From assembly GCA_950295325.1 (NCBI GenBank), contig OX485803.1, forward strand, positions 40,441,554 to 40,505,553: DNA of 64,000 bases, written 5' to 3'. The stretch's first letter is position 1. Each line of letters starts with the position of its first letter. This document shows positions 21,201 to 46,202 of this stretch, piece after piece. The DNA is from Polytrichum commune. Its lineage: Eukaryota; Streptophyta; Polytrichopsida; Polytrichales; Polytrichaceae. A model generated the notes under the pieces. The model saw only the letters and a list, made by a program, of their open reading frames with translations. It had not been told where the DNA came from and ran no database searches. The position numbers and the translations under genes are program-made.

Positions 21201-24200
21201 TCTTGGTTTCAAAATATTATATATATATATTTGGGAACCCATATGGTATCATGCGTTGTTCACTTCCATGGTACATCAAGAATGAACATCCGTAGGGTCC
21301 ACTTGCACCACCTAGTGAGGAGAAATAACTAACAATATACTTAGTGATAATCAACCAACTAGCATATAGTGAACCAATCTCATATCTGCATTCTTTGGAT
21401 ATGACTAGCTAAAGGTTAACCAATTTAAGAATGGAGTCACAAAGGAGTTAAGGTTGACTGGCCAAAGTCTTACCCGGCTTCCCCAAGTTTTGAAAATGAT
21501 ACTAGTTATAAACACTGTAGTTTTTTGTAGCCCACATCAATTCTCATTTTGTTATCATTGATATTAGATTACATGTCATTGTACATTTTAACTTTGAAAT
21601 ATAATACATTAACATATAATCTATCAATATTTTTGATTCCATGATTTATAACCCATGTTGGTTTTTCATTTTTAAAGGCATAACATGATCCACCTCATAG
21701 CAAAAATGAAAAAGAGATGGGGAAATTGAGTGGCAGGCATTCAAGAAGTGAATAGGCTACTCGTTGTTAAAAAGTTAGTTAACATTATGGTTATGGTTGA
21801 AGAAAGAGGTAAAAAAAAACAAAGTCCAAAAGGTTAGCTAACTTCTATTGGATAAGTTTGACTTAGACACGAATTCTAACTAGGTGGTGTGAGCGTGAGA
21901 TTGACTAGCTTCTACATAGATCATCTACATCATGTGTTAGTTGATTCTCTCGACCGGGGAGTGCAAGAATAGAATGGCCCAACATACTAGGGGCATTATG
22001 CCCCCAACATTCTTGGCCCTAGGGTGCAACAACCCTAGTGTCGAGTCATGTCATGCCGTTCCCAAACTAGTAGTATATATACAACAACAAGGAAACAAAT
22101 GAAGCTCACGATTACCGTAGTGATTCCCGAAAATAACACAAGTTGTTGGACGGCTTGGTCGATGCTAATAGACGCTGGGGACGCTAGTGACATGGAGATG
22201 ACGGCCGGGTAAATGGCGTTCCATCCGATCCAATCGAGCGCCGCCATGACGGTGCCATAGCCTCCACTCCCATCACACCCCAAAGCCCGCACCGGGTGTA
22301 TGAAGACATTCTTGGCCACCCCACTTAGCAAGCCCCCGACAATCCCTGCATTGGAGTTTCGACACACCTGATCCTAAGCACTTAGTAACTATATACTTTG
22401 GGGTACTAGAGTAGAGCTCGTTGCAAGAGCCAATGTGGAATCGGCAGGTGTCTCACGTGCATAACATTATTCAGATCCATAGCAATGTTCTGTGGGACTA
22501 ACGGTATTCCACGTAGTGTTCTTGGATATTCCCCACATTCAGTCGATCCCTGCATTGGAGTTTCGACACACCTGATCCTAAACACTTAGTAACTATATAC
22601 TTTGGGGTACTAGAGTGGAGCTTGTTGCAAGATCCAATGTGGAATCGGCGGGTGTCCCACGTGAATAACATTATTCAGATCCATAACAATGTTTTGTGGG
22701 ACTAACGGTATTCCACGTAGTATTCATGGATATTCCTCACATTTAGACAATCCTTGCATTGGAGTTTCGACACACCTGATCTTAAACACTTAGTAACTAT
22801 ATACTTTGGGGTACTAGAGTGGAGCTTGTTGCAAGATCCAATGTGGAATCGGCAGGTGTCCCACGTGAATAACATTATTCAAATCCATAACAATGTTTTG
22901 TGGGACTAACTGTATTCCGCGTAGTGTTCTTGGATATTCCCCACATTCAGACAATCTTTGCATTGGAGTTTCGACACACCTGATCCTAAACACTTAATAA
23001 CTATATACTTTGGGGTACTAGAATGGAGCTTGTTGCAAGATCCAATGTGGAATCGGCAGGTGTCCCACGTGCATAACATTATTCACATCTATAACAATGT
23101 TATGTGGACTAATAATATTCCACGTAGTGTTTGTGGGAAATATCCAATAACACTACGTGGAATACTATCAGCCCCACGGAACACTACTATGAATATGAAT
23201 AATGTTATGTGAGTGAGTGGTATTAAACATATAATATCAAATATTGGTATCAAAGAATGTACCCGACTAAATATCAAACTTGTGATGTTAGGCGAACATC
23301 CATATTTGGCAAGTATCGTGACAAGAACGAATGATCTTCATGTACCCAAGTTTGTTGGGTTGGGGGGCCAGTGTCATCTTAATATCATACTGATATTGAT
23401 ATTGATATTGATACATTGCCACTTGGGTCCTCCACTCTAAAAGATCGTGATGCTTTATCAATATTGCTACATATATGTAAGTAATTCGCAACCGAATACC
23501 ATAACATTACTCTGTTGATGAGATGTGTGTTGGTTGCCCTGATTATATTTCGGATTAAATCTAAAGCATTGGGATTCAAACATCTGGAGGCTTCATTCTC
23601 GAATCTACTGTAAAACCCGTGAACCCAACTCATCAACTGAGTAATGTTATGATTAAATGAACCCAACTGTCATTCTATCATGCATAGATCTTCCCATTAA
23701 GGGGCACGAGGATGAGAATGTACACCTGCACAATGGGTTCCATGTCCATTGCAATCGTTCGTGCCATTGCCATCTTGAATGCCATCAAAACCACCGGAGC
23801 ATCGGGTCATTGGCTTTTTATTTGCATCTAGTCGACCGTCTTGGTACAAAAACTCGGTGTGGCTGCACCTCACACCCTTCCAATTGCCACCCAATAAACA
23901 TGAAACAAATGACAATAAGTATAATTATTTACATTGATGCAAGGTGGGGGGGCTAACGACATAGAGGCATCCATACATCAACTAGAAGTTCTAACCCATC
24001 ACATAATTCATAACATATCATTTGACAAAGTGTGGGTTTACATTAGGGTTCGGGTCTAAGAACACTTCTTCAATGGACCCTTACGTTTAGCTCAAGATTG
24101 GACCCGAGTTTGAAGAATGGTTCCTCAAACTAGGAGGAAGAGTATTTTATTGATTCTTATGGAGTCCACTAAGATTTGGCGGGACAGTGTTGTCACGTAC

Positions 24201-27200
24201 ATTAGCGCCTTTTTGTTTTGTTATACCTTGAACTTGAACCCTAGTGAAAACTCCTTGGGTCCAAAATTTTGCTCTCGATTGATAGGATTGTTTTTTTTTT
24301 TGAGTTCTTTTGGTCTTGGAATCCAATGCAAATCCATCAAAAGGTGAGTGCACATTTGTTGGACACTTTGAGCATTTCAAGATGCGTAGGGTTTTGATAA
24401 CAAACATAAATGTGCACGTGCGCAAAATCCAAATGAAAATATATGAAAATTTAACTTGGTATATTTGAAATCTACGTGCATCTCTTACAAAGTTTCAAAA
24501 TGAAACGCATAGGTGACTTATAATGGTTTTCTTTTTCTTTTTCTTTTTCTAATCATCATATTTTACACTTGAATACATACATGTGTGTTAGAAACCATAC
24601 TAAGGGCTGGTTTACACTACGGTGGAGAAGTCCACCGGTCATGAAAAAAAGGGCGTTTCTCAATTGTGATTGGTCGAAAATGCAACTCTTGACCGGTGGG
24701 TGTTTACACTAGGTGAAGAAAACAATGGTGGTGAACTTTTCTCATGGATGATAAAATGACATGGCCGCCTACATGGCGGCACTTTTTGGAGTTGGGCTTC
24801 TCCGGAGGAGGAGTTTCTTGTCCGGCCTCAAGAGGCCGGACAAGAAACTCCTCCTCCAGAGAAGCCCAACTCAATAAAAATATTTCATTGTCTTTAATTC
24901 TTCTCCGGCACATCCACCATTTGCCTCATATAACCATGTCTTGGCCAAGCATTCTTGACCGACCGGAGGCCTTCTCCACCGTAGTGTAAACCGGCCCTAA
25001 GTCATTGTCCCACATCTACCTTTCATCTTAATGGATCTTGTGGCAATGACCAATCGGCCAGGTCACAAGAAATCATTGTTTTTCCCACCAAATAACACCC
25101 ACCTACCTAAGCAATGGTTACATCATCATTCAAACCCACCTTGAAACAGCTTGGTAAAACATGATCAATGTAAGGGTGAACGGACTCCCCATTCACGTTC
25201 CCTAGTAGAAAACATTGCGAAAAAAAAAACCGCAGTTGTTTTTCCATTGCAGTTTTTTCAACCACCTTGATCTACAGTCGCTAAACGACTACATATTCTT
25301 CTTTTCCGTTTTGCGACTGCAATTTCAAATTTTTCGAGGCGTGTAATACATTGTTAAAAAGGTGTTGTCAAGACCTTTCCCAACAACATTTCACAAGGCC
25401 CCAAATTCCTAAAATTTCAGTTGGTAAACCACAAAAAATAAACCCTGCAATCAATTAGCGACTGCAAATCAGGGTGGTCAAAAGAACCGCAATGGAAAAA
25501 CAACTGCGATTCTTTTTCGCAATGTTTTCTTCTACTAGTTGGTGTACCAAGAAAAGACACCTGATCCTACTTCACTTCACTCTTGTAACATCATTCAAGA
25601 GCACACTAGCATACCGTATCGATTATGTACACGTGGACACCGGCACCACCACTCCCAACCGTGTACAAGTTGTTGAGCAAAGCTTGGCCCGATCGGTGAT
25701 CGATGCGGTCGAGGCCCCAATTTGGGGGGTAAGTTTGGGTGACGTTTTTGGCGGTGATGCTAATCGTGGACGTGACACCACTTGTTCGCACCGTGCCCTC
25801 CACCTCCACATACTCGATCTCATCTTTTTGTATGTCAAGAAGCTTCGCCAAGTTTTGGCCCGTCAACACCATCAACATTCCCACCCACACCGACTTGTAC
25901 CTAGTATACAAAATTGTTTCAACAAATATAAGGTAAAAAAATTGTATATGGTGCTAACCCCATCACTTCAAGATCCGAGCATATAAATATAGTAGATTGA
26001 AGTTTTGAGTGCTTATCGTTAGTTAGCAATGTGGCTCGGGTAATGCAAACACATCAAAGTATGTATGCAAAAAGTATTGGTAGGTGTCCAAAATCAACAC
26101 ATGAGCATGGTGTTAAGATGGTGGACATTTTCATACTCATTGTATACTCGATGTTTGTGTATGTTGATCTTAGGGTGTTGGTATTAGCAATGTATATGTT
26201 ATACGGTGTGTTTTGTGTGGTGAAGTACAGTGGAAGGATAGATGAGATACCATGTTCGTTACAAATTCTAAGAAAGAGAAGACACTTTGATATTGCTCAT
26301 GTGAATTGCATATCGATATATTCAAGTTGGGCTCGATTGTCCACCCGACCAACGTATGAGTCTTAGGCGATTATCCTATGTCAACTTTTTCAGTGATGTA
26401 GGACAAGTTTCTAGTGACGCACGACACTTACCCAAAACTCATATGCTTGTAGTGCCATGAGCTTACACATTCATGGTTGGCATCACAAAGACATGTTCTT
26501 GCGCCGACATGCTAGTAATTTGAAGACCCTTTTTAAAAAAAAAGGGTTTACATGTACGTACATAACAATGTCATAGAATGAATGTCTTGGAGAGGGAGCC
26601 TAGGGTTTCAACAAGGGGCCAAAAAAAAAGTTAAAAATAAAATCGATTGCAAGTGCAGTGGTAGTAGTAGACACGAAGTTACTTGGCAACACAATAGCCT
26701 GGGTAAGCCGTTTTATTGGTTTCGGCGATGGAGCATATCTCGTCCACTTTGGTTACAGGAACACTTTTCCTGAGTTTCACCATGAACCTGCTCCAAAAAT
26801 GTGTTCAAATGCGTTAAAAGTGGACATTACATCAACGACAATTGACAAACCACAATCGTTCAACCACTACCAACATTCGAGTCATGGACAATTGTCATGT
26901 GTCGATGAAAGAATAATGCAATTATGTCATTGTGATAGATTTGCAGATTATCTAGTGAAGTAGGACAAGTTTTCAGTGATGCGGGAATTGTACGTCCATG
27001 ACTTGTATGCTTGTAGTCAATACGGGTTGGTTTTTTTCACTCTGGGCTAAATTAGGGTATCAAATTAAAGGACTCATCATCATAGTCAAAGGAATCAAAC
27101 TACTTTTCTTGCAATCATTTTGAAAATTTGGATATGATCATCCATTCTAATCGATCGTCGAATTTTACTTATTCTTCACATATATGCATCGACCTCCGGA

Positions 27201-27737: not shown

Positions 27738-29532
27738 TCTCCCAACCCACGCCTCAAGCAAAAACGGCCTCCATGGAAATTTTGACCATCACCACAAGAG
27801 CTCCGCCCTTCTTCCCATGCCTCGGGTGGATGATGAATTTGCACCTCTCCAAGTTTAGCCCAAAGAATCACGAGCAAGCAATGGACTCGGGCGTCATTGA
27901 GATGAGCTTCGGAACTCGGGCTCAAATCATGTACTAGGGTGTGATTCGGCGCATGAACAATGTGGGATTGGGAAGGGAAGAGGGGTTTTTGTTTTTATTT
28001 TTATCTAATGAAAAGAAAAGAAAAGAAAAGGTTTCATGTGAACTTCATAACCGCAAGGCAACCCAACCCATCCCATCCCATGAAGTCTCCGATGACATTG
28101 GGGCACTATAAGTTATCATGGATGTGCCCGATCTTCCGTAACGCTATAACAAACACTTGGTTTAGTTTGGCATTAACACTCAATGCTCACCTCAACACAC
28201 TACTTATACATTCGTGTGCCGTGTTGAACAAATGGGTTTTCATAAATTGTCATGTAGTCTCACCAAGTGTGCACCTCATCTAGTGGTTGTTGCAAAGCCC
28301 ATTGCAAGGCATACTTGTGGGTCCATGTTCAATAGTGCGGGTTGCACTAAGTCAAATATTGTGTCCCTAGTAGCAGGATATATGGTAGTTCAAGGTCACA
28401 TTGTGTTTTTTGAATGCATTTTTTAAAATTAATCATTGTTCCAAGAACACATATTTGTCTCAACCCCTTGTTAGTATTGTATTCCACCCTTTGTCAACAA
28501 ACTTAGTAGCATAAGGCAACCCAAGTCTTTGTGTTACTGGGTTGTCTTATGTTACTAATCCTATTCATAAAGGGTGTCTTAATACACCACACATATGATG
28601 ATTTTAAACAACACATAAGATGCATTTGTTGAATTGACATAGGGTTAAGTTTAGGTGGAAAAAAGTAAGTTCAAACTACCAAAGGGTACAAGATGATAAA
28701 GCAAAAGTAAAAGTAGAAAAATATGGGTATCAGAAAAAGAAAGATATTAGTTAATAGCCCCCCCCCCCCAATGCCAAAAAAAAACGCTTCGATGCACGTA
28801 TGTATAAAAACTATGAGATAGTGAAGTACATGGGACCTATCTACATTGATATGTGCAATTAGTGGCCTTTGTGAATAGGGTTCCTCTTTGCTCATGCAAA
28901 TTACCTTCATAACTTCATTTAGTTGCATGGTTGTGTGCCATTCTAAATTTAACATTTGACATGGGCCTCCATTATCTTACCTTCATGGGAAGAAACATAG
29001 AAAATAGGAAGAAATTGACAGTGGTATGAACAACGAACAATGCCAATGTGTATAGCAAGAATATTGTGAATAGTGTCAATGTTTTCAATGATAATATCAT
29101 ATTGTTGCTACAAATAGTATTTTTAGTGAATCATAACGGATGAACAATGTTTATTGTGAAACATGTTAGGAGCATAACTCTGCCCAATTTTGTAAGTGTC
29201 AACATGAATGTACGAATAGTAAATGAATATTCTCATTGTGTTTTGGGCCCCCACAAAATATAATTGATATAGTCTAGGGTTATGCAATCGACCCACATGG
29301 CTGAATAATGTTTTGTTGTGTCAGAGACATATTAATAAAATAATTTATTTTTTAATCAATTTGTATGGAAAACATAATAAGAAATATTGAATGAAAATTG
29401 AAATTGTGGTAACAAACATTCAAAATAATGCGGACTTTGATTTTCTAGCATGGAGCAACCTAATTGCATATACTAGTGTAGTTTTTTTTATGGCTCAATG
29501 TTATCAGACTTTGATATATCATAACAATTCAA
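27738..29532. other. Upstream region of the subtilase gene, no gene seen
   Basis: The first 300 bp (minus-strand upstream) are GC-richer, with AG-rich and AAAAG-repeat tracts near 28010-28030, and may hold the promoter and 5' UTR. I saw no clear TATA box at a convincing distance. The rest is AT-rich, with a poly-C run near 28760-28769. Confidence 0.4.
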
Positions 29533-30636
29533 GTCTCTCTCTCTCTCTCTCTCTCCCTATCTTGCTCTTGTTTAAAGCCATATGTTCAGTCTAAACTTGT
29601 ATTCCTTTACTTTATACCTATCATGTACACATGGATGAAAAATATAGTTACTATATGGACTAAGTTTTCATAAGCATAGATGAATGGTACAAGGAGACTA
29701 GGGTTAAGGATGTAGAACACATCCCTAACACGTGGTAAAATTAGGGTTGTACAGAACTTACCTTGGGTAAGATCTCCAATATAAACCCGTAAACCCTAAA
29801 AGAGGTTCTTTTTTACCATTCGCACAAGGGCTTGGTGAGGTAACTTAGAGCACACTTACTGGGATACTAGATACGTGTGCCAAGTGAAGTAGAGGATACT
29901 AAGGCTATTCACCAAGGAGAGCATTCTACTTGTGGTGATACAATCATGGCTAAAGAACAGGTTTGAACACCCATTTGACATTTTGTAATGAGTGTTACTA
30001 TTAGAAATACTACTATGCATGTAATGTAAGTTTAATGTGTGTGACATGGATAACAACTGGGTCCTGCTGTTATTTACCTCGTGTACGTAACTAATCCTCA
30101 ATTATTTGTTGGTTGGTTGCATGGGCACATGTGAGGCAGGCCCTTCACACTCTCAATACTACGAAGTATTGTGAATATGACATTTTATGCATTTCTTTTG
30201 GTTGATACTACTAGGCATATCTCCTGGTATGTTTTCCATATATATATATTAGATAGAGTACATCCTTGTTGGAACAATGCATGAAGATGGGTAATTAGAT
30301 CTACAAAGGTATGATGGGGTCAGCCACAATTTGTTTTTGGATACTTAGGAACCATGTATGAGCACTGAAACCCTAAGTATGATACAAATACTTATGAAAG
30401 TACAGTATATCGTATTGTTACATGCTTGTATTGTTTACATACAAGACATGAGCATTTGCAATGAGCATTGAGCATACTTAGCCTTAAAACAATATGATGA
30501 GAAGGTTAGACTTGAGGTAATGAGGGTTATGAAAAAGTTCCCACCCACCCACCCTTGCATTGCAATGAAGAAGACATTGAAGGATTAGGCCTCTGAAAAG
30601 AGGAAGTTCAAGCTTTGCAAAAAGCATTGAAAAGTC

Positions 30637-30639
<3 letters not shown>
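29533..30639 (+). repeat. Pseudo-LTR copy A (older, solo)
   Basis: A repeat of about 1.1 kb from a CT tract through CCCTATCTTGCTCTTG to GAAAAGTCAGCTCT. It aligns end to end with copies B and C but carries scattered substitutions and a small indel near 30240. It is therefore older than the B-C element it touches. No ORFs follow it before copy B. Confidence 0.85.

Positions 30640-30681
<42 letters not shown>
30639..30681. repeat. (CT)n microsatellite at the A/B junction
   Basis: About 20 CT units separate copies A and B. Shorter CT tracts mark the other repeat edges at 29534, 31766, 35864 and 36960. Confidence 0.95.
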
Positions 30682-30684
<3 letters not shown>

Positions 30685-31773
30685 ATCTTGCTCTTGTTTA
30701 AAGCCATATATTTTGTTTAAGCTTGTATTCCTTTACTTTATACCTATCATGCACACATAAATAAAAAAGTAGTTACTGTATGGACTAAGTGTTCATAAGT
30801 ATAGATGAATGATACAAGGTGACTAGGGTTAAGGATGTAGAACACATCCCTAACACGTGGTAAAATTAGGGTTGTACAGAACTTACCTTGGGTAAGATCT
30901 CCAATATAAACCCGTAAACCCTAAAAGAGGCTCTTTTTTACCATTCGCACAAGGGCTTGGTGAGGTAACTTGGAGCACACTTGCTGGGATACTAGATACG
31001 TGTGCTAAGTGAAGTAGAGGATACTTAGGCTATTCACAAAGGAGAGCATTCTACTTGTGGTGATACAATCATGGCTAAAGAACAGGTTTGAACACCCATT
31101 TGACATTTTGTAATGAGTGTTACTACTAGCAATACTAATATGCATGTAATGTAAGTTTGATGTGTGTGACATGGATAACAACTGGGTCCTGCTGTTATTT
31201 ACCTCGTGTACGTAACTAATCCTCAATTATTTGTTGGTTGGTTGCATGGGCACAGGTGAGGCAGGCCCTTCACACTTACAATACTACGAAGTATTGTGAA
31301 TATGACATTTTATGTATTCCTTTTGGTTGATACTACTAGGCATATCTCCTGGTATGTTTTCCATATATATAATAGTTAGGGTACATCCTTGTTGGAGCAA
31401 TGCATGAAGAGAGGTAATTAGATCTACAAAGGTATGATGGGGTCAGCCACAATTTGTTTTTGAGTACTTAGGAACTATGTATGAGTACTGAAACCCTAAG
31501 TATGATACAAATACTTATGAAGGTACAGTATATCGCATTATTACATGTTTGTATTGTTTACATACAATTAGACATGGGCGTTTACAAAGAGCATTGAACA
31601 TACTTAGCCTTAAAACGATATGATGAGAAGGTTTGATTTGAGGTAATGAGGGTTATGAAAAAGTTCCCACCCACCCACCCTTGCATTGCAATGAAGAAGA
31701 CATTGAAGGATTAGGCCTCTGAAAAGAGGAAGTTCAAGCTTTGCAAAAAGCGTTGAAAAGTCAGCTCTCTCTG
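30640..31773 (+). repeat. Pseudo-LTR copy B (5' repeat)
   Basis: A repeat of about 1.1 kb ending GAAAAGTCAGCTCTCT. It holds a CCCACCCACCCACCC run at 31666-31680 and a CCTCTGAAAAGAGG stem-loop near its 3' end. Confidence 0.9.
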
Positions 31774-31906
31774 GATTATCCTTTAGTGGTGTGGAAACCA
31801 CTACCTAGTCCTTCATATTCTTCTGAAGTTGCTTTACATGTTCTGTGGCTGACTAACGTCGCAGAACCATAACAAGGGACCGGCATGGAACAGCGAGCTC
31901 GTAGCA

Positions 31907-33439
31907 ATGGGGTACGGCCCACCACTACCGGCACCCATACCTGCGGTGCAAACCACTATATCTGCCATAGATTTACCCGAACTGCACAGATTTGTACAAG
32001 ACAGTGACAATGCAGCACTTACAAACGGCGAAGAAGAAGGTGGGCATACACCACTTCTCCTGGATTCACTTGACCTAGCATTGTGGACGTCACTATTTAT
32101 TACTGCAACCACAGATCCAACCAAAACCTTGGCCAACATCAAGTCTGCACAGACCAGACTAGGTGATTTACTGATACAGGATGAAATCGAAGCTACAAAA
32201 TCAATCGGGTTATGCTCGATGATTGAGGAAACCCTCAAGCTGGCCAATAAAGATGCGCTGGAAGCAAACTCGTCGCACACGGCAGTGGTAGCAACCAGCG
32301 ATGGCAACGGAGCTAACAGCACCGTTCACCCATTACTGGCAAAACTGAAGATCTCCACCATGGAGATGGCTGCTCTAGAGGATTTCACCGAGGACATCAA
32401 TTCTTCGCAGGCGGAGAAAGATAAGCAGACCATGGTCAATACCAGGGGTCCCTTAGTACCCGTCAAACCGCCACGCTGTGTGGAGCTCCTCGTCGCCGAC
32501 CACCAACATCGAATGTGGGCAATCGGGAACACGAACCTGATCGCACCAATTTCGATCGTCATGTGGAAAACCTGGGCTGGCCTCTCGGATTCGGAGATAG
32601 AACAATGCAAACAGCAGGCACTTAATAACATTGGCGTGCTACGTGCTCCAGTGGACTTGCTGCCGGCCTTCTCTCTTAACATGTTCGAGCATTCTAAATG
32701 CACGACTACAGAAGTGAAGCTGCACACTAAACAGGATCTACCCACGGGCTATAACAGAAAAGAGTCTCACCTAGCGGAGCTCTGGAATGTTCAAAGACCC
32801 TATATGAGATGCTTGTGCAATCCTAGGGCGATCAGTGGGTGCAAAGGATCCATAGTCTGGTTTGACCATGCCATTTGGACAATGGTTAACAAGCTAGATA
32901 TGTTCTTCCCGAATCAACCAACCAATAACACCAGGTTCGCTGCTTTCATGCTGTGGCTCAGCAGCGCAGCAAAAATCGCAGTAAAGGCTGCAGTAGTGTT
33001 CCACATTGGAAGAGAACACATGGTGACAGCGGCGACACAACTCGCTGATAATTCTAACCAGAAACTACTACCTGACCTAAGCGATGCTCCACTGGCTATC
33101 AAAATCGAACGACTCCTGAGAGGGCCAAAATTCTCTCTGCTGCACCCAGGATCACCGAGCCCTGCGCCATCGCCGTTCAAGAAACAACGACTCAACCTCA
33201 ATACCTCACCCTCACAGCAGGGTGCACAGGGAGGGCGCGGTAGATCTCCAAACGGTCGCGGGTTTACTCCCCGAGGTGGGAGGTTTAGGGGTCGCGGCAA
33301 TGGCCGCAACTTCCATCCGCGTGACAGCTCGCAGGGGACACCACCCGGCCAAGCCAGGGCAGCAACCACCGAAAATACACAGGGAGCAGGTGGCCAGTCC
33401 CCGCTCCGAGGACGTGTTCTATTGTGGGATGGGATTTAA
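31907..33439 (+). CDS. Retroelement ORF1, gag-like protein with RGG-rich tail
   Basis: 510 residues from an ATG about 130 bp after repeat B. I recognise no named domain. The first 300 residues are mostly helical in character and acidic to neutral. A middle stretch has Cys and Trp (RPYMRCLCNPRAISGCKGS, about 298-316), too irregular for a retroviral zinc knuckle. The last 100 residues are basic and Gly/Arg-rich (GRGFTPRGGRFRGRGNGRN), as in RNA-binding RGG boxes. Position upstream of a reverse transcriptase and the basic tail suggest a nucleic-acid-binding gag-like role (inference). Its base composition is clearly GC-richer than the repeats and ORF2, which could mean a different origin for this ORF. 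Confidence 0.8.
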   Translation: MGYGPPLPAPIPAVQTTISAIDLPELHRFVQDSDNAALTNGEEEGGHTPLLLDSLDLALWTSLFITATTDPTKTLANIKSAQTRLGDLLIQDEIEATKSIGLCSMIEETLKLANKDALEANSSHTAVVATSDGNGANSTVHPLLAKLKISTMEMAALEDFTEDINSSQAEKDKQTMVNTRGPLVPVKPPRCVELLVADHQHRMWAIGNTNLIAPISIVMWKTWAGLSDSEIEQCKQQALNNIGVLRAPVDLLPAFSLNMFEHSKCTTTEVKLHTKQDLPTGYNRKESHLAELWNVQRPYMRCLCNPRAISGCKGSIVWFDHAIWTMVNKLDMFFPNQPTNNTRFAAFMLWLSSAAKIAVKAAVVFHIGREHMVTAATQLADNSNQKLLPDLSDAPLAIKIERLLRGPKFSLLHPGSPSPAPSPFKKQRLNLNTSPSQQGAQGGRGRSPNGRGFTPRGGRFRGRGNGRNFHPRDSSQGTPPGQARAATTENTQGAGGQSPLRGRVLLWDGI

Positions 33440-33494
33440 ATGGAATGTGAGCTTACTTAAGCAAGTTTTACACTACTCTTAGGATGCATCCTAA

Positions 33495-35672
33495 CAGCTA
33501 GTTGGCTATAATTTTGAACTCACAGAGACAGGTCGCACATTACGACATAATGCACTTGGACGCCGTTATGTGTCACGTGACAAGAATACGGATCGAACTG
33601 GGATAGTACACGTAAACTACTGCAGTAGGGCATTAGAGTGGGTGAATATGAAACAATTATTCTCAGAGGTGTTCACTCAGTTGTCAATACCACATATTAT
33701 ACTTTTTTTGCTTAACATTATGTTCGCTTGGAATTTTCTGCCTAATGTCTCCAGAGTTTGTTATAGACCTGCTTTAGTATTCAAAGATTTCAATGTGGGT
33801 GCACACATGACGGGCTCATACGAATGTATGTGTAACAGTTCTAAGAGACTGATACAGTTTCTAGACCCAGATACCATAGATGATACCAATGGTGATCCAA
33901 GGATGCATGTACGCACCATGGATACAACCATAATACATCACCATGGATTAAGAGAAGCAGTGACCTTAGGATTGAATCACATACCTTTACGAAATACTAA
34001 TATACGTGAGACTGTCCAAGTGGTAATGGATACGTTTGAACAGGTTTGCCGACTTTTGAAAGTAGACGAACTTATTGACGTGGACATGGCATCTAAAATC
34101 GTTCGAGCAAGGTCAAGAGACAAACTGTTATCAGCCATAAAAGAAAATCTTTTTGGCTTCAGGTATTCAAAACCATACCTCTTCTCTGAAAAGGCAGTGG
34201 AAAATGAATTGTCTTGGCTCATGAAGCATGTATTCATATCGGGACTAGATAAAGCAACTAGTAATGCTTGTTTCATATGCATTACTCACATAAGAAATCA
34301 AGCCTTGATAAGACTCAACAGTCCTGATTTTGAACCATGCCAACATGACAATGCATGGGACTCTGTAGAGGATGTCACAAACAAGGTAAAGATGGAATTG
34401 AAATCCCTCTTACCCGAACTACCCATACATGAGGAAGAACTTCCTTATATAATGGCGATATACAAAGTCCACAAAATGAAATATAGGTGGATCTCCAATG
34501 CATTTGGGACCCTATATGTAAATATTGCCACACTCCTTACCATATCAACTATGGCACTACTTGATGAGGTAAAGGAATGGGCTACTCTCACGGTCAAAGG
34601 GTATAGTAATTTCCTTGGTATTGACACGTCAATATATTGGATTATAGACTCAATTACATATTTTACCTTAAACATTCCTGAAAGTATCAACAACATATAT
34701 GTTGCTGATATAACAAGATGTTTCGAGTCTATTCCAATTTCGGGCAAAGATACATTATATGACGCTATGGAGTTTATCACTCAAATTGGTATATCCAATA
34801 TGAAACGAAAACATCCTAAATCTGAACACCTCCTCTGGGTTAGGATTAACGACAAAGGAGTTACCACTAAAGCACTATGGGCATCTAAATGCCCTAAGTA
34901 TGGGGAATGGTTCCCAATACCAATCCCTAAATTCCTACAAATTCACAAATGGTTGACAACTAACTGTTATGTACGATTGGGAGACCAGGTATGGAAACAG
35001 GTACTCGGTATACCCATGGGTTTTTCATGTTCGCCTCTTTGGTGTAACTTATATCTCATGTCATATGAGATTAAGTTTATACAGAGGTTAGCTAGACTTG
35101 GACAAACAACAATCCTAGCTAAATTTAAGTACGCATTTCGATATATCGATGACTTGTGTTGGATTAACGTGGGTGAGGCTAATATGTTCCTCGATCCTAC
35201 ACAACCAAGACACAGAGATAATCCATTATGGATCTACCCATTGGATATTATTGAAATCAAGACTGAAGTGTCTCAGTTTTCATTAAACCATCCACAGTCT
35301 GGCATCAAAGCACATTTTATGAATGTGTTAATCACTGTTACAGACGAGGACGCTGGTCTATTCATCATGCAGAAGTACGATAAACGACGTGAGTTACCAT
35401 TCAGTTACTCTCAGTTTATAAAATTCAAGTCGAACAGACCGGTTAAACAGGCTTACAATGTGGTTATTTCCCAAACTGTACCCATACTATACCTATCAAG
35501 CAACCAGGACGTAGCTTTGCAGGAGATAAGAGCTCTGTTCACAGTGCTATCTGCTAATGGGTTCCGCAGTACCAAACTACAACAAATAGTGATTAAGTTC
35601 CTGACTAACAACCACTTTCCTGCGTTGCGATTTAATAAAGACCATCTTCTGCAACTGCTGCAAGGTATGTAA
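33495..35672 (+). CDS. Retroelement ORF2, Penelope-like reverse transcriptase
   Basis: The frame is open from 33495. The first in-frame ATG is at 33648, so the true start is unresolved (GTG 33570, splicing or a frameshift from ORF1 are alternatives). Numbered from 33570, it shows a CxC motif at 86-88 (YECMC), the block HVRTMDTTII at 113-122, GLNHIPL at 134-140, RT motif A with Asp380 (VADITRCFESIP), motif B (GIPMGFSCSPLWCNLYL), and motif C RYIDDL with Asp527-Asp528. The thumb block KYDKRRELPFSYSQFIKFKS follows. This order matches Penelope-like reverse transcriptases, especially those with a CxC motif. The protein stops at LLQLLQGM with no C-terminal GIY-YIG, and none is seen N-terminally. Catalytic residues are intact and there are no internal stops. 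Confidence 0.85.
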   Translation, partial: QLVGYNFELTETGRTLRHNALGRRYVSRDKNTDRTGIVHVNYCSRALEWVNMKQLFSEVFTQLSIPHIILFLLNIMFAWNFLPNVSRVCYRPALVFKDFNVGAHMTGSYECMCNSSKRLIQFLDPDTIDDTNGDPRMHVRTMDTTIIHHHGLREAVTLGLNHIPLRNTNIRETVQVVMDTFEQVCRLLKVDELIDVDMASKIVRARSRDKLLSAIKENLFGFRYSKPYLFSEKAVENELSWLMKHVFISGLDKATSNACFICITHIRNQALIRLNSPDFEPCQHDNAWDSVEDVTNKVKMELKSLLPELPIHEEELPYIMAIYKVHKMKYRWISNAFGTLYVNIATLLTISTMALLDEVKEWATLTVKGYSNFLGIDTSIYWIIDSITYFTLNIPESINNIYVADITRCFESIPISGKDTLYDAMEFITQIGISNMKRKHPKSEHLLWVRINDKGVTTKALWASKCPKYGEWFPIPIPKFLQIHKWLTTNCYVRLGDQVWKQVLGIPMGFSCSPLWCNLYLMSYEIKFIQRLARLGQTTILAKFKYAFRYIDDLCWINVGEANMFLDPTQPRHRDNPLWIYPLDIIEIKTEVSQFSLNHPQSGIKAHFMNVLITVTDEDAGLFIMQKYDKRRELPFSYSQFIKFKSNRPVKQAYNVVISQTVPILYLSSNQDVALQEIRALFTVLSANGFRSTKLQQIVIKFLTNNHFPALRFNKDHLLQLLQGM

Positions 35673-35784
35673 CTCTTACTACTATTTACAGTATTGCATA
35701 AAGGGAGTATATGTAATTGGATACCAATGAATGATGTATACAAATCGCATGAGAGTGACGGAGAGAAAAATAAACAGGGTGACT

Positions 35785-35825
35785 GGTATGCATACCGTGA
35801 GTGGATGCATAACCAGCATCCACTC
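35785..35825 (+). other. Hairpins between ORF2 and repeat C
   Basis: A 12-bp palindrome GGTATGCATACC (35785-35796) is followed by an inverted repeat GAGTGGATGC / GCATCCACTC (35799-35808 and 35816-35825, 7-nt loop). They lie in the 3' leader to the pseudo-LTR. Confidence 0.8.
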
Positions 35826-35863
35826 CTATACACTTATGACCTACCAGGGGTTTGGTGGAGGGA

Positions 35864-36959
35864 CTCTCTCTCTCTCCCTATCTTGCTCTTGTTTAAAGCC
35901 ATATATTTTGTTTAAGCTTGTATTCCTTTACTTTATACCTATCATGCACACATAAATAAAAAAGTAGTTACTGTATGGACTAAGTGTTCATAAGTATAGA
36001 TGAATGATACAAGGTGACTAGGGTTAAGGATGTAGAACACATCCCTAACACGTGGTAAAATTAGGGTTGTACAGAACTTACCTTGGGTAAGATCTCCAAT
36101 ATAAACCCGTAAACCCTAAAAGAGGCTCTTTTTTACCATTCGCACAAGGGCTTGGTGAGGTAACTTGGAGCACACTTGCTGGGATACTAGATACGTGTGC
36201 TAAGTGAAGTAGAGGATACTTAGGCTATTCACAAAGGAGAGCATTCTACTTGTGGTGATACAATCATGGCTAAAGAACAGGTTTGAACACCCATTTGACA
36301 TTTTGTAATGAGTGTTACTACTAGCAATACTAATATGCATGTAATGTAAGTTTGATGTGTGTGACATGGATAACAACTGGGTCCTGCTGTTATTTACCTC
36401 GTGTACGTAACTAATCCTCAATTATTTGTTGGTTGGTTGCATGGGCACAGGTGAGGCAGGCCCTTCACACTTACAATACTACGAAGTATTGTGAATATGA
36501 CATTTTATGTATTCCTTTTGGTTGATACTACTAGGCATATCTCCTGGTATGTTTTCCATATATATAATAGTTAGGGTACATCCTTGTTGGAGCAATGCAT
36601 GAAGAGAGGTAATTAGATCTACAAAGGTATGATGGGGTCAGCCACAATTTGTTTTTGAGTACTTAGGAACTATGTATGAGTACTGAAACCCTAAGTATGA
36701 TACAAATACTTATGAAGGTACAGTATATCGCATTATTACATGTTTGTATTGTTTACATACAATTAGACATGGGCGTTTACAAAGAGCATTGAACATACTT
36801 AGCCTTAAAACGATATGATGAGAAGGTTTGATTTGAGGTAATGAGGGTTATGAAAAAGTTCCCACCCACCCACCCTTGCATTGCAATGAAGAAGACATTG
36901 AAGGATTAGGCCTCTGAAAAGAGGAAGTTCAAGCTTTGCAAAAAGCGTTGAAAAGTCAG

Positions 36960-36973
<14 letters not shown>
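35864..36973 (+). repeat. Pseudo-LTR copy C (3' repeat)
   Basis: Same sequence as copy B wherever compared, including the conserved CCCACCCACCCACCC run at 36861-36875. It ends in CT then (TA)n at 36974-36991. Confidence 0.9.

Positions 36974-36991
<18 letters not shown>
36974..36991. repeat. (TA)n microsatellite
   Basis: A short TA run directly follows the CT edge of the retroelement. Confidence 0.9.
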
Positions 36992-36992
<1 letters not shown>

Positions 36993-37069
36993 GCCTAGAG
37001 TGGATATTGGCTACTTACCTTAGTTACAATTGTGGATGCACAAAATTTTCAACTTAGAAACTCCGAGTA

Positions 37070-37466
37070 GTATAAGGTTTAGTTTACACATAGATCAAGA
37101 GCCATGCTTTGAAAATCATCCAAAGACCGTACCATGGGAAATAAATATCTAATTTTGCAATTGATGGACCCTCAAACTTAGTGTAAAGTGAAAGTGGACC
37201 ACATTGAGGGACCGCAACACATGTTTGGGTTTGGATTCACACTATGATAATATAATATTTATAAGAGCCAACGACAATTTTAATCAATTGCCATGGCCCC
37301 TAGATTTTGCATTAGACCCATTAGACTTTATTTGATAGGTCTATAAAAATATAGGATAGACCATGAAACATTATCCACTTGCGAGCATGTAAGATTTTCA
37401 TCGATTGGTCACATAATTTGTATATCACGGGTCAAGGGCCCTCAAGCTCTAGTGTAAAGTGGCCCT
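37070..37466. mobile_element. PIF/Harbinger-like miniature element
   Basis: The left end 'taaggtttagtttacacata' and the right end 'agtgtaaagtggccctaa' (reverse complement 'ttagggccactttacact') are a decayed inverted pair with TAA at both edges. It shares inner sequence with the partial copy at 16690-16976. Confidence 0.55.
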
Positions 37467-37499: not shown

Positions 37500-38338
37500 G
37501 CCCATCTAGCTTTTTAAAGAACCGTAACGAACTTTTGTGTGCGTCGGCATTTCTCAACCTTTCTGGATGAAGCAGCCGACGTAGATGCGACGTAGACGCG
37601 ACGAGGACGACCGAGAAACGTATTCCGTCTCACTCTCGTCCCTTGCTCGAGGAGTCCCTGCTCTCGTTAGGAAAATCGAGTTCTTCGCCGAATGCTATGG
37701 TGTTCTCAAAGGATTTGTTTTCATGTTCATTGGGTTGCCGAATTCGTGCCAGTCAGATGCTGTGTAGATTGTCTCTTGCATTTTTGAGCGATTGATCACC
37801 TGTTGTACATAATTTTTCGGGTTTGAATACATAGAGAAATTATTTGTGGTTGGAGGATCAAGCTGCCACATGCATGCCTTTCCGCTTCTTGGTCTTGAAT
37901 TTCTGGGATTTTGGATGAACATTGTTGATGTTCTGGACACTCATGTTTGGGCAACCTCTGTGTAACTTAGATCATCGTTCCTTACCTTTTTGTGATTATA
38001 AGTTCCCCGTATCGCAATCTGCCTGCACCCTTTTTATGTAGGGTTAGTGTATCGAGGTCTGTCTCTGATCACCATCATATGTTTTTTCTCTTTTCTTTTC
38101 TTTCTTTCTTCCCATCTCGGAGTGGTTAACTTATGTCGCAGACATCATCCTGGGTTAAGTTATAACCTCCACATTGACATCTCGTGGTGTCCGCTTTAAG
38201 TAGAAAAGCTCTGTTCCTGCGAATTGTAGAACCAAGGGTTTAGGGTTTAGGGGTCGGGGTTTGCTGTTGGGAAATCAATCGGTGGTCATTTGTTGGGTGT
38301 GCGAACTTTCGAAACCGCTGTGTTACAATATTCACGCA
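37500..38338 (+). promoter_or_regulatory. Upstream region and probable 5' UTR of NUP62
   Basis: Base composition rises sharply here compared with the transposon-rich left side. A telomere-box-like GGGTTTAGGGTTTAGGGG lies at 38236-38253, about 90 bp before the start codon. Telo-boxes are known near start sites of plant housekeeping genes. Exact transcription start is not visible. Confidence 0.45.
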
Positions 38339-41300
38339 ATGTCAGGGTTCGCGGGATTCAACGCTCCTTCACAGGGTTCAGCACCCGTATTTTCTTTTGG
38401 CGCTTCCACCACTCCAGCCTTCGGGGCAACCCCACCGGCATCTGGAGCTTCTGCGCCAGGAAGCTCGCCTGCGGGAGGAGGTTTGTTCGGTTCAAGTGGG
38501 GGAGTTTCATCGTTTGGAGCATTTGGAGCGAGCTCTACCCCAGGAGGAGGAGGAATGTTTGGCTCTTCAGCTCCCACATTTGGGGGTGCGAATCCTTTTG
38601 GCGCCACTAACACTGCATTTGGGACCGCATCCCCAGCCCCATCTTCATCCCCTTTTGGCACCCCATCCTCCACCACCCAGGCTGCATCCGCGACATCACC
38701 AGCACCCTTTGCATTTGCACAATCTTCAGCAGCCCCAAACACAGCAGCAACAGCAGCAACAGCAGCATCCCCTTCGATTTTTGGTTCCTCGTTGCCGTTT
38801 GGAAGTTCAAATTCACAAGCTGCCACCACTCCAGCTGCGTCTCCGTTCGGAGGCGCCGCTGCTTCCACAGGTGGTGCAACTCTTTCAGGGTTTAGCAATG
38901 CCTTTGGCAGCTCCGGGGGGTTTAGTGGATTTGGAGGGGCTCCCGTATCAACTCCAGCGTCTGCTACCCCATCCGCACAACCGAGTGCACAAGCCACAGG
39001 TATTTGCCAAACTTCGTCTTTCATGGCATAGTTATGTTGGTTTCTACCAATTCGCGCTTGCAGATTATTTGTTCTGTTTCTTTCTGAGATCAAGTATAGC
39101 AATTCTTCTGGAATTTGTAATCATGTTGTAAGCTCATGTTGCTTGTAGCGCACTTTGGCACTGGCTTAGCATTGCGGTAAAGTGGGAGAAAGAGACCCGA
39201 TTCTTCAATGATAATTAGGTTATACATGCTACTCATCTACAAACTTTCATCTGGATTCTCGAGGTTGAGGGTTGGGGGCTTAAGATTTAGAACCTCATCT
39301 CCAATGTCACAAGTAGTCATCTCGGGGGACAATTGTCATATTCTGCTCCTAAACATGCACTTGGGCATGCAGATGGTTTTGTTCTGTTTGTTTTGAGATC
39401 AAGTATAGCAATTCTTCTGGAACTTGTGACCGTGATATAAGCTCATATTGCTCATAGTGCACTTTGGCAGCTTAGCGTAGTGGTATAGTAGGACAAGAGA
39501 CAGGGCTTCAATGGACATTAGGCTATACATGCTACTCATCTATACACTTTCATCTGCATTCTTCATGGTCGAGTTTAGGGTTTAACACCGCATCTCAAAC
39601 GTCACAAATAGTCATTGTGGGGTACGATTGTCATTTTCTGCACCTAAACATGGACTCATGCATGCAAATCGATTTGCTCTGTTACTTTTTGAGATCAAGT
39701 ATAGTTCTGGAACTTGTAACCACACTATAAGCTAACATTGCTTATAGCGCACTAAACCACTCACTTAGCATGATGGTTTAGTGGAAGAAAGAGACTGAGC
39801 TCTTCAATGGAAATTAGGCTACAAATGTTGCTCATCTTTACAACTATCATCTGGATTTTTCAAGGTTTAGGGTTTAGGACCTCATCTCCAATGTCATATG
39901 TATTCATCTTGAAGTTGATCTGACAACAGTGCTTTTGATGATTAGACAATAATGAAGGTTTTTGTTAGTGTAATGAATACCTGGGGGAAACGATTGCTGT
40001 ATTCTGTGTTGGGTGATTGCTTACCACTGGATTCTGGTTGTATGAACACACCTTTGGGTCATGAAATCGTTTTTGCGATTATCACATTTTCAATGTTCAT
40101 GGAGTAGTGGGGAATGGTGGGAACTTGTCTATACTCTATTGCTCTCTTTTCAATAGTTGATTGTCACTCTTTCTAAGGTCACGATTCAATGTTCAGTCTG
40201 TTTACACTGTCAATGTTCTATGTTGTGTATTTCCATAGATTTGAAAATTGGTTGTCTGAAGTATTTTTTTTCCATCAACACAGATCACTCTGCAGACATT
40301 GTGAGATTTGTATTGGGGTCCTTTTTACTGTGGAAGTAGTTCTCTGTAAAGTTTCATGATCAATGTCTTTGTGTGGTCATTCTGTGGGGGTGCTGTAGGT
40401 CCATCATTAGGCTTTGGCACTACCTCATTCTTTGGTAGCAGGGCCTCAACTCCAGCATTTGGGACAAGTGCAAGCCCCACTCCTCTATTTGGTGCAGCCG
40501 TGAGTGCTCCAGCTGCTTCACCATTTGCCGCTGCCTCATCGCCATTCTCTCACTCACAGTCCACCCCTGCTGCCACATCAACCTCCGCCTCTCCTCCTGG
40601 ATTCTCATTTGGGAATGCTCCAAGCTCTGGCTCTGCTTTTGGTGTTGGATCCCAAAGCACTTCTGCTACAGCTGCCTCCTCAGCAGCAGCCACGTCCTCA
40701 CCTTTCTCTGGGTTTGCTTTTGGTTCACAGAGTTCTACACCTGGTTCCACAGCTGCACCAGCTGCAACCTCTGCATTCGGAGCATCCACACTCACTCCAA
40801 CTCAAACCCAAACTCCTTCGCCATCTCCTCTATTTGGGTCGTCATTCTCATCTACTCCTGCATCCGCAGCAGCACCCACCAGTTCCCCGCTGTTCGGTGT
40901 GACTTCTGCAACACCGTCCTTTTCTTTACCTGCGAGCACAGCAGCATCCACCACCACCACAACAGCATCAGGACCTGGGTTATCATTCCCATCCTTATCG
41001 ACGCCAGCTGCTGCAGCTACTACTGCAAGCTCTGCACCTTCGAGCAGCTTTGGAGTTGCAGCTTCAACTCCTGCATCATCAGCAGGTATGTAACTGCATA
41101 GACGTGGAGACTTTTCCATCTGCAATGTAGGTTAATGCTGTTCATACTCAAACTTCATTCTCACATACGTCCCTGGACACAAGCTTTTGTCTTAAGCTTC
41201 ACCAGACTAGATTATCATGTGGATGCCAGATTGCTTCTGCCATTCCACCTCTGAGGACATCCTTTGTACCTATGAATGAGAGAACGTTTGTACTCAAGTT

Positions 41301-44520: not shown

Positions 44521-46202
44521 CTGAACAATGTTTTCACCTTCCTTCCCCCCCCCCAACTTATTGACAGTCCCTGTCATGTCACTGTTTCTGGAGCTTGTTG
44601 CATTTTTGTCAGATGGTGTAAACATATCCAAGAGATGGCAAGGACTGAAGACCATTGCGGCCTTTTACACTGTAATAGACCTAAAACTTGGAGATGCTCA
44701 GGCTCATATTATCTGTAATTAGAACACTTTGACAAAGTTCAAAGTGACTCATCATTCAAGCTGAATCACTATTATTCCTTCCTTGATTTTTGTAGCATTA
44801 ACAGGACTGCAATTGCGGGTTCAGATTCTGGTGTACCTGTTCAATAACGGTATCCTGTACCTCAGAATGTTACATGCCTCCCTTTTGTTTAGTCAAGGTC
44901 CTATGGTGAAAATACTTAACATCAAGCAATTCTCCACACTTGACCTTGACTTAAACCAGAGAGGAATCAGTAAATGTGTCAAAACATAGTAATGTAGGTA
45001 TGTATATGGGTAATAAGATTGAGTGTGACAAACAAAGGAGTTATCAATTTAGACCATAAATTCTTGCAGTTTGAGTGGGTATGATTCCAAGCATCCTGAC
45101 CTTTGATTTAGTCACGGATTTAGATGTTCACGATGGCTGAGGATTGTTTGGTGTTTATAATGTGATGCAATGATATACACCCAAATACCGCACTAATTTT
45201 TCAACGTGCCATGCAGTATGAATTGTTAATATATTCGTTTTCGTTCCCTTACTCTGAGCAAGTGCAAGATTTTTCCTGAAATTAGTCACCACACTACCAG
45301 TTTTGGAAAGTTGTGGTTCCGGCCATAGAATGATTGTCTTAAAGTATGTGAATGTTTCAAATGCTATGTAAATCTTGGCAAAATCACTTTACTTCAAAAT
45401 ACTTAAACCTCTACTAATGTCGATGCCTCAACTTTATTAGCTGCAGATATGAGGATTGAAAATGGAACTGACCTACTATATATAACACAACATTGTGTTA
45501 AAATCTATCTCCTTTTCATCTTTAAAATCGGCCCAGGAACTAATCATAGAATTGTGATATAACTTAACCTCAATGTGTGTTTCTGCTCACAGTTTTTAAG
45601 TCACAAACATCAATGAAGACATAAGGGAATCCTGAAATCTCATCGATGGTCAAGGATTGTTCATCGCAACCCACATTGAGCAGAAGCGAAAAGTTCCAAT
45701 TTTAGCATTCCTAAAAGGTGGGGCCACGGAGCAGAAGCAAAAGACATGGCCACAGTGACCCCCCGCAGTCTTATCCCCAACTTCATACCCAAAAATCTAA
45801 CATCTCGAAATCATTGCCACTGCCACAATTGAAACTAAAACATCATGTTGCACAATTCCAAACGGAAATAAGGGGTCGGTAACAGTATTAGTCGACTATT
45901 CTTCGGAAGATTGAATGTCCATGTGAAACAAAAACACCTGGAGAAATCAACCATGTGGCTGCAAAAGTTGTGAGAGGCCCTCCCTACATACATTACGGCA
46001 AGACTCGGTTTCTCCGAAGGTCTTGATTCCAAATCCCCAGGGTTTCGCATTTCAGACTGCAAATGCGAGAGCACGAATCTTTGTTTCTGGAGATCATCAT
46101 CATCAGAGTACCTGGAATATGAGCATTGAATTGTAACCGATTTGGAATTGCAGGCAATCTGATTATTTGGGGAAGAGCCGTGCGGAGTTGCGAGAGAGAG
46201 AG
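44521..46202. other. NUP62 3' flank and upstream region of the M41-like gene
   Basis: The first part is probably the NUP62 3' UTR. I see no supportable gene, repeat or RNA in the remainder. The last 600 bp before 46203 should hold the promoter and 5' UTR of the next gene. A GA-rich run (GAGAGAGAGA) is immediately upstream of its ATG. Confidence 0.45.

Follow-up and report, generated by a model that had tools for sequence, protein, structure and literature searches.

The stretch of DNA analyzed here (the window) comprises 64,000 nucleotides of contig OX485803.1 of the Polytrichum commune assembly GCA_950295325.1 (positions 40,441,554 to 40,505,553, forward strand). It contains a retroelement at positions 30669-36967 with two long terminal repeats (LTRs) and two open reading frames (ORFs) in the order LTR-ORF1-ORF2-LTR, the element and the features that border it all lying on the plus strand. 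The two LTRs (30669-31772 and 35864-36967) are direct repeats of 1104 bp with 100% identity; the 5' LTR terminates in ...AGTCAG(CT)4, and the 3' LTR is followed by further CT units up to position 36973 and then by (TA)n. Both edges of the element are (CT)n and, as described in an earlier note made from the letters of this DNA, the ends lack TG..CA. That note had counted two identical-looking 1.1-kb direct repeats; the identity holds, but the count does not, given a third repeat with (CT)n flanks (r1, 29534-30646) that lies head-to-tail upstream of the element with 94.7% identity to both of its LTRs. Membership of r1 in the element was rejected on the basis of this lower identity and of its grouping with other copies. 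Because r1 clusters with the LTRs of L014-L016 in an LTR tree, apart from the window LTRs, it probably represents a solo LTR that is older and belongs to a sister group. The tract that separates r1 from the 5' LTR, (CT)21 at 30639-30680, is the putative insertion site; the element looks to have inserted at the right-hand (CT)n of r1.

Directly inside the 5' LTR is a predicted junction hairpin (31773-31811; inner stem 31784-31790 with 31797-31803), followed by ORF1 (31907-33439), which encodes 510 amino acids from its ATG in a frame open from 31853 and consists of a conserved part and an R/G-rich tail. ORF2 (33495-35672) is a frame of 725 amino acids from stop to stop, or 674 from its first ATG (33648-35672), with a CxC motif at 33825-33833 (residue 111 in the 725-residue numbering) and RYIDDL at 35139-35156 (residue 549) in the reverse transcriptase (RT) core. 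The 510-residue frame with an RGG tail and the RT frame of some 700 residues with both motifs are thus as previously noted. A G-rich, polypurine-tract-like sequence, AGGGGTTTGGTGGAGGGA (35846-35863), adjoins the 3' LTR. Coding conservation of ORF2 starts 5' of the first ATG at 33648, and no methionine precedes a conserved GxVH in 7 of 10 copies (the window copy, L015, L019, L028, L029, L031, and L033), while L030, L032, and L034 do have one. Candidate splice signals, CTAAC and CAG (33491-33525), were identified in a by-eye comparison of 10 loci directly upstream of the conserved ORF2 start; the resemblance of this CAG to a 3' splice site suggests that splicing may be a route to ORF2 expression. 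A +1 frameshift joining the two ORFs was also considered and was rejected due to stops between the frames in the window copy and L033.

The earlier note had proposed counting copies and their flanks in the whole genome, and the count (408 Mb, 64 contigs) returned a family flanked by CT tracts. A 601-base query across the ORF1 start found 18 places, and an ORF2 search gave at least 69 matches, a lower bound from 66 scored candidates out of 132, of which 14 were near full length without stops. A total of 17 further loci from the ORF1-start search and 10 from the ORF2 search were read. By ORF2 identity, copies fall into group A (at least 83%), group B (about 60-66%), and group C (about 43-45%); between A and B lie copies, most of them decayed, with about 67-75% identity. 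The same layout, with both proteins and direct terminal repeats, was found in L028 and L030 (group C) and in L029 (group B). These repeats are 100% identical over at least 1261 bp (L028), at least 723 bp (L030), and at least 840 bp (L029), and those of L028 and L030 run to the ends of the sequence read. L029 carries an in-frame stop in ORF1 and a shortened 3' LTR. Nine copies (the window copy, L011-L016, L018, and L019) include both LTRs in the sequence read and form the basis of the LTR and insertion counts below; the other 9 of the 18 places (L017 and L020-L027), being diverged, interrupted, or decayed, were left out. All nine are complete at both ends, and none is 5'-truncated. Ratios of nonsynonymous to synonymous substitution (dN/dS) were 0.11-0.17 for ORF2 in seven pairs with dS below 1 and 0.06 in three deeper pairs, and 0.04-0.09 for ORF1 in 10 unsaturated pairs; more distant pairs were saturated, and pairs nearly without synonymous change were left out. 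By this measure both ORFs are under purifying selection, and the ratios for ORF1 indicate that it is a real, selected protein. The window element is apparently a young, intact copy that moved recently, in agreement with what had been supposed from the window alone.

Pfam recovered RVT_1 alone in the window ORF2, as a weak match (E 3.5e-4) that falls short of the curated cut-off, and RVT_1 in all six of the ORF2 members examined. Matches other than RVT_1 among six ORF1 and six ORF2 members were at chance level (E 0.13 or worse, a single member each), among them one match to an ORF1 member (E 0.17), and the window ORF1 had no Pfam match. In structural comparison the best neighbors of ORF2 were telomerase RT chains, with weak scores, ahead of retroviral RTs. 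A model of ORF2 built from the single sequence, with a pLDDT of 33, yielded nothing further; in modeling of the RT, the region between the fingers and motif A, considered for an insertion-in-fingers domain as in Naiad/Chlamys elements, was partly built, at low confidence. The ORF2 motifs match those of Penelope-like elements (PLEs). Together, the motifs and the weakly scoring telomerase neighbors support the earlier assignment of a Penelope-type RT, and ORF2 appears to encode an RT of the Penelope/telomerase type. Searches of ORF2 and ORF1 against PDB sequences with phmmer and with profiles returned nothing useful, with no significant solved relative of ORF1 (best E 0.6), and an NCBIfam search returned only weak group II intron and Drt2 matches. 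Scans of viral and genome contigs for reference relatives found none beyond two decayed fragments, L001 and L002. These are PLE-like RT pieces in GTDB bins of Thiodubiliella and Thioglobus, and they are probably animal PLE-like RT sequences that reflect contamination by an animal host. For ORF1, the claim of a separate gag-like ORF stands insofar as a conserved frame with an R/G-rich tail is present; the term gag-like is unproven, as there is no Pfam match in the window ORF1 and no PDB match better than that given above.

Pfam detected no integrase, protease, RNase H, tyrosine recombinase, or other nuclease in ORF1 and ORF2 of the window copy or of six members of each. The profile search for GIY-YIG that the earlier note had suggested gave no match in the window ORFs at E up to 10 or in the six ORF1 and six ORF2 members at E up to 1. 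No GIY..YIG pattern occurs in the two window ORFs, and the Foldseek matches listed include no GIY-YIG or integrase structure. The absence of GIY-YIG, integrase, protease, and RNase H reported from the window is therefore borne out by Pfam across these members, as is that of the integrase and tyrosine recombinase profiles that the note had named as contrary evidence. As a control, the GIY-YIG profile found 13 places in the genome, all unlinked to the element: three are on contig C9, which has no ORF2 matches, and among the remaining 10 the shortest distance to an ORF2 match is 207 kb. A GIY-YIG domain linked to the element was rejected on this basis. The three GIY-YIG open frames on C9 lie within 25682-54904 and are perhaps organelle-genome homing endonucleases. 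The element thus appears to have no endonuclease recognizable by Pfam; ORF1 or the N-terminal part of ORF2 may yet hold a diverged one. This possibility is the core of one alternative, in which the family would be a PLE with an N-terminal endonuclease of the Naiad/Chlamys type whose nuclease, in the ORF2 N-terminus or in ORF1, has diverged past recognition, cuts at (CT)n, and primes in the manner of other PLEs of that kind. Naiad and Chlamys PLEs, which Craig and colleagues are said to have described in 2021, reportedly have an N-terminal GIY-YIG endonuclease, a CxC motif, and a bias toward microsatellites, and the last two features are shared with the moss family. In ORF2, C111 and C113 of the CxC motif are invariant among six aligned members and are preceded by about 100 residues with conserved positions and no recognized fold, and ORF1 carries conserved C, H, W, and D residues; a hidden nuclease could reside in either. 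However, the profile that is blank in the element, as is the GIY..YIG pattern, finds its 13 places elsewhere in the same genome, and this alternative is regarded as possible but rather doubtful. Finally, no hammerhead ribozyme was present among six chance-level Rfam matches in window positions 29300-37300 (E up to 10). Across the whole window no Rfam family attained its threshold, L015, L019, L028, L029, and L030 gave no match with E up to 1, and a single hammerhead core-like 7-mer lies within ORF1.

All nine copies start on the left at (CT)10 or longer, consistent with the microsatellite insertion site noted for the window element. Runs of at least 10 CT/AG dinucleotide units make up 0.14% of nearby sequence (4 runs in 83,039 bases), so that chance is an unlikely explanation for nine of nine copies starting at one. 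At the right end, the (CT)4 of the LTR is followed directly by other sequence in six copies, the number of units being otherwise 3 (L019), 7 (window copy), and 16 (L018). In eight of the nine copies, the outer CT tract on the left exceeds the one with which the inner LTR begins, the margin being a single unit in L014 and L019. The outer LTR of L013 and that of L016 have CT in place of their first bases, which the inner LTR retains, as would be expected if a target CT tract was joined or primed there. A solo LTR common to the L015 and L016 loci (Y, 87% identity) has the element at its right edge with (CT)16 kept at its left edge in L016, and the element at its left edge with (CT)21 kept at its right edge in L015. 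This comparison, of paralogues and not of alleles, suggests that CT tracts at LTR edges predate insertion. L029 likewise sits in a CT tract beside another LTR, and 172 bp including about 50 CT units are present on both sides of it (331-502 and 6615-6786 of the reverse-complemented locus), as the outcome of recombination or of a target duplication of great length. LTRs of different subfamilies form head-to-tail strings in the L015 and L016 flanks, where they are joined by (CT)n, and in the right flanks of L011 and L013, as if each insertion created the next landing site.

The nine ORF2 places with at least 83% identity are at least 8.2 Mb from contig ends, at odds with the chromosome-end habit that the earlier note gave for endonuclease-lacking members. 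Of 50 ORF2 places, obtained by merging neighboring rows among the 69 matches by hand, three, all on contig C4, are within 1 Mb of a contig end versus 1.7 expected, and chromosome-end targeting was rejected on these distances, which are to contig ends and not to mapped telomeres. These positions bear on a second alternative, namely that the family is an ordinary endonuclease-lacking PLE of the Athena/Coprina type that has moved from chromosome ends to internal sites. Such a PLE would account for the lack of a detected endonuclease, and elements of this kind are listed for spike moss and conifers in PMC9033089. The location away from contig ends, the CT-tract target, the complete LTRs, the two conserved ORFs, and the lack of 5' truncation in nine copies argue against it, and it is considered very improbable.

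The LTRs themselves provide further evidence. LTR pairs are without internal substitution in seven of the nine copies, and by direct substitution count, alongside an LTR tree with rough bootstrap, an LTR's own partner is strictly nearest in seven (the window copy, L011, L014, L015, L016, L018, and L019). Copy-private substitutions common to both LTRs number 1 in L011, 1 in L015, 5 in L016, 31 in L018, and 58 in L019, with none in the window copy, L012, L013, or L014, and solo LTRs are present in the genome. At least on this time scale, and in the manner of LTR elements, one LTR seems to be copied into two at replication; the same homogeneity could result if a tandem template were copied repeatedly. 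Thus, of the long pseudo-LTRs proposed earlier, the direct terminal repeats are confirmed and the pseudo-LTR behavior is not, as completeness, pairing by copy, and solo LTRs indicate repeats that resemble true LTRs in their behavior more than they do pseudo-LTRs, which are usually truncated partial tandems. The sequence AGGGGT(T/A)TGGTGGAGGG(A/T) adjoins the 3' LTR upstream in nine of nine group A copies, and L028 and L029 have G-rich tracts at the same place. These observations raise a third alternative, a true LTR retrotransposon with an unusual RT whose double-stranded cDNA, made in particles, would enter CT tracts without an integrase, through end joining or recombination by the host. The complete LTRs in all nine copies, their grouping mostly by copy, the solo LTRs, the G-rich tract before the 3' LTR, and the R/G-rich tail of ORF1 are in keeping with it, but it is unlikely given the lack of protease, integrase, and RNase H, the ends without TG..CA, and the rank of telomerases above retroviral RTs as structural neighbors.

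The hairpin inside the 5' LTR has the stem UAGUGGU-loop-ACCACUA in the window copy and UAGCAGY-loop-RCUGCUA in group B, and in L028 (group C) another hairpin occupies this position. Among 12 distinct group A and B sequences, chosen by hand with duplicates and an unalignable group C copy left out, pairing holds in 90.5% of cells, both sides differ in 8 cells, and covariation scores 0.286; not one of 500 shuffles reached any of these values. As many pairs changed on both sides (2 of 7) arose in 442 of 500 shuffles, and as many pair types in all 500. Control shifts of -3 and +3 each gave one pair changed on both sides, 7 of 12 rows have a broken innermost pair, and a single event between groups A and B may account for the change on both sides. 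The 28-base hairpin has a folding energy of -9.5 kcal/mol (z -2.0), which 7 of 200 shuffles equaled, and the 74-base region folds no better than shuffles (z -0.9). Selection on the hairpin is indicated, not proved.

Taken together, these data are best explained, with somewhat better than even confidence, by a two-ORF retroelement that lacks an endonuclease, has complete LTRs and an RT of the Penelope/telomerase type, inserts through (CT)n priming, and regenerates its LTRs. Several observations weigh against this explanation. The fold scores of ORF2 against telomerase are weak; the control for the CT target rests on paralogues; L018 reverses the tract-length rule, with 10 units in the left outer tract versus 17 at the inner LTR; L012 ties with L013, and the L013 3' LTR is nearer to L012 than to its own partner; and the hairpin statistics are mixed. 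A more specific version, offered tentatively and with less confidence, is that an element with a telomerase-like RT undergoes true LTR replication in which (CT)n/(GA)n microsatellite DNA primes both strands (a two-primer model), without integrase, RNase H, tRNA primer, or an endonuclease of its own. Host breaks or a host nuclease would stand in for an element-coded endonuclease, and ORF1 would package or chaperone the RNA. The RT would bind the hairpin inside the 5' LTR, as a proposed RT-binding and start site, and begin at the adjoining (CU)4, with a target (CT)n tract that has been broken or nicked providing its (GA) strand as first primer on that RNA sequence. This proposed start is based on the genomic right end of the copies being the LTR-ORF junction, (CT)4 beside the hairpin, and on comparison with a PLE of the anole. 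The RT would then copy the LTR end, switch to the 3' LTR of the RNA, and read on to the start. Second-strand synthesis would start where the LTR begins, beside the purine-rich tract, with the (CT)n strand of the target as primer on the complementary (GA)n there, and this step would complete the other LTR. Such priming and template switching would explain why the ends are precise, why CT tracts lie outside them, why CT replaces some LTR starts, and why the LTRs are homogenized. Since each insertion would bring its own (CT)n landing site, the two-primer model would also explain the nested LTR strings.

Other features of the window lie apart from the element. Two FG-repeat-rich open frames (38204-39031 and 40350-41093), beginning about 1.2 kb downstream of it, have no Pfam match and are perhaps exons of a nucleoporin gene. 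A 305-amino acid open frame (46137-47054), also without a Pfam match, resembles a plant plastid membrane metalloprotease-like protein, and an open frame at 15126-15557 without a Pfam match has a Cys/His pattern like the C-terminal part of the ORF2 proteins of long interspersed nuclear elements (LINEs). A dispersed repeat of about 330 bp occurs in both orientations at 10506-10844, 18833-19169, and 25199-25534 (69-84% alike), and a tandem repeat with a period of about 204 bp, its units about 91-94% alike, spans 22338-23131.

LTR elements, LINEs, and PLEs are distinguished by their modes of priming and of genome entry. The family described here joins a telomerase-like enzyme with complete, apparently regenerating LTRs, without a recognizable cutting enzyme and far from contig ends, and it may show a different way of building and inserting such elements. 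It would make testable the use of host DNA repeats as primer by a telomerase-type RT and the origin of LTRs without retroviral machinery, and its study is practical because a single genome holds several intact copies that are nearly identical. In the literature searched, which did not extend to the main account of the nearest clade, no two-ORF PLE that lacks an endonuclease and has full LTRs was described; this is no proof that such an element is unpublished.

The moss family resembles Naiad and Chlamys elements in the CxC before the RT, the microsatellite bias, the direct terminal repeats, the lack of a detected hammerhead, and the internal sites, but differs in having no GIY-YIG found, a second, upstream ORF, and complete LTRs in nine of nine copies. 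Complete LTR pairs mostly homogenized per copy, a purine-rich tract, solo LTRs, and a two-ORF layout are shared with Ty3/Copia LTR retrotransposons, which differ in their protease, integrase, RNase H, and TG..CA ends, and the RT fold of the moss family appears, at weak scores, to be nearest to telomerase. DIRS elements have a tyrosine recombinase, and Pfam found none in this family. PLEs in general show frequent 5' truncation and partial tandems, in contrast to none truncated in nine copies here. A PLE-type RT without a detected endonuclease is a likeness to the Athena/Coprina elements; internal location, CT targeting, full LTRs, and a conserved ORF1 with an R/G-rich tail set the moss family apart from them. 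Endonuclease-deficient PLEs are described as largely confined to chromosome ends (PMC3846280) and are named in spike moss and conifers (PMC9033089), and Chlamys PLEs are reported in a brown alga (PMC12477816). According to PMC11167929, the Poseidon PLE of Anolis has a single ORF, a C-terminal GIY-YIG, a hammerhead, and an AT-rich target, unlike the moss element. It shares direct repeats with the moss element, and its reverse transcription starts internally, at the junction of pseudo-LTR and ORF, which is the place of the hairpin in the window element.

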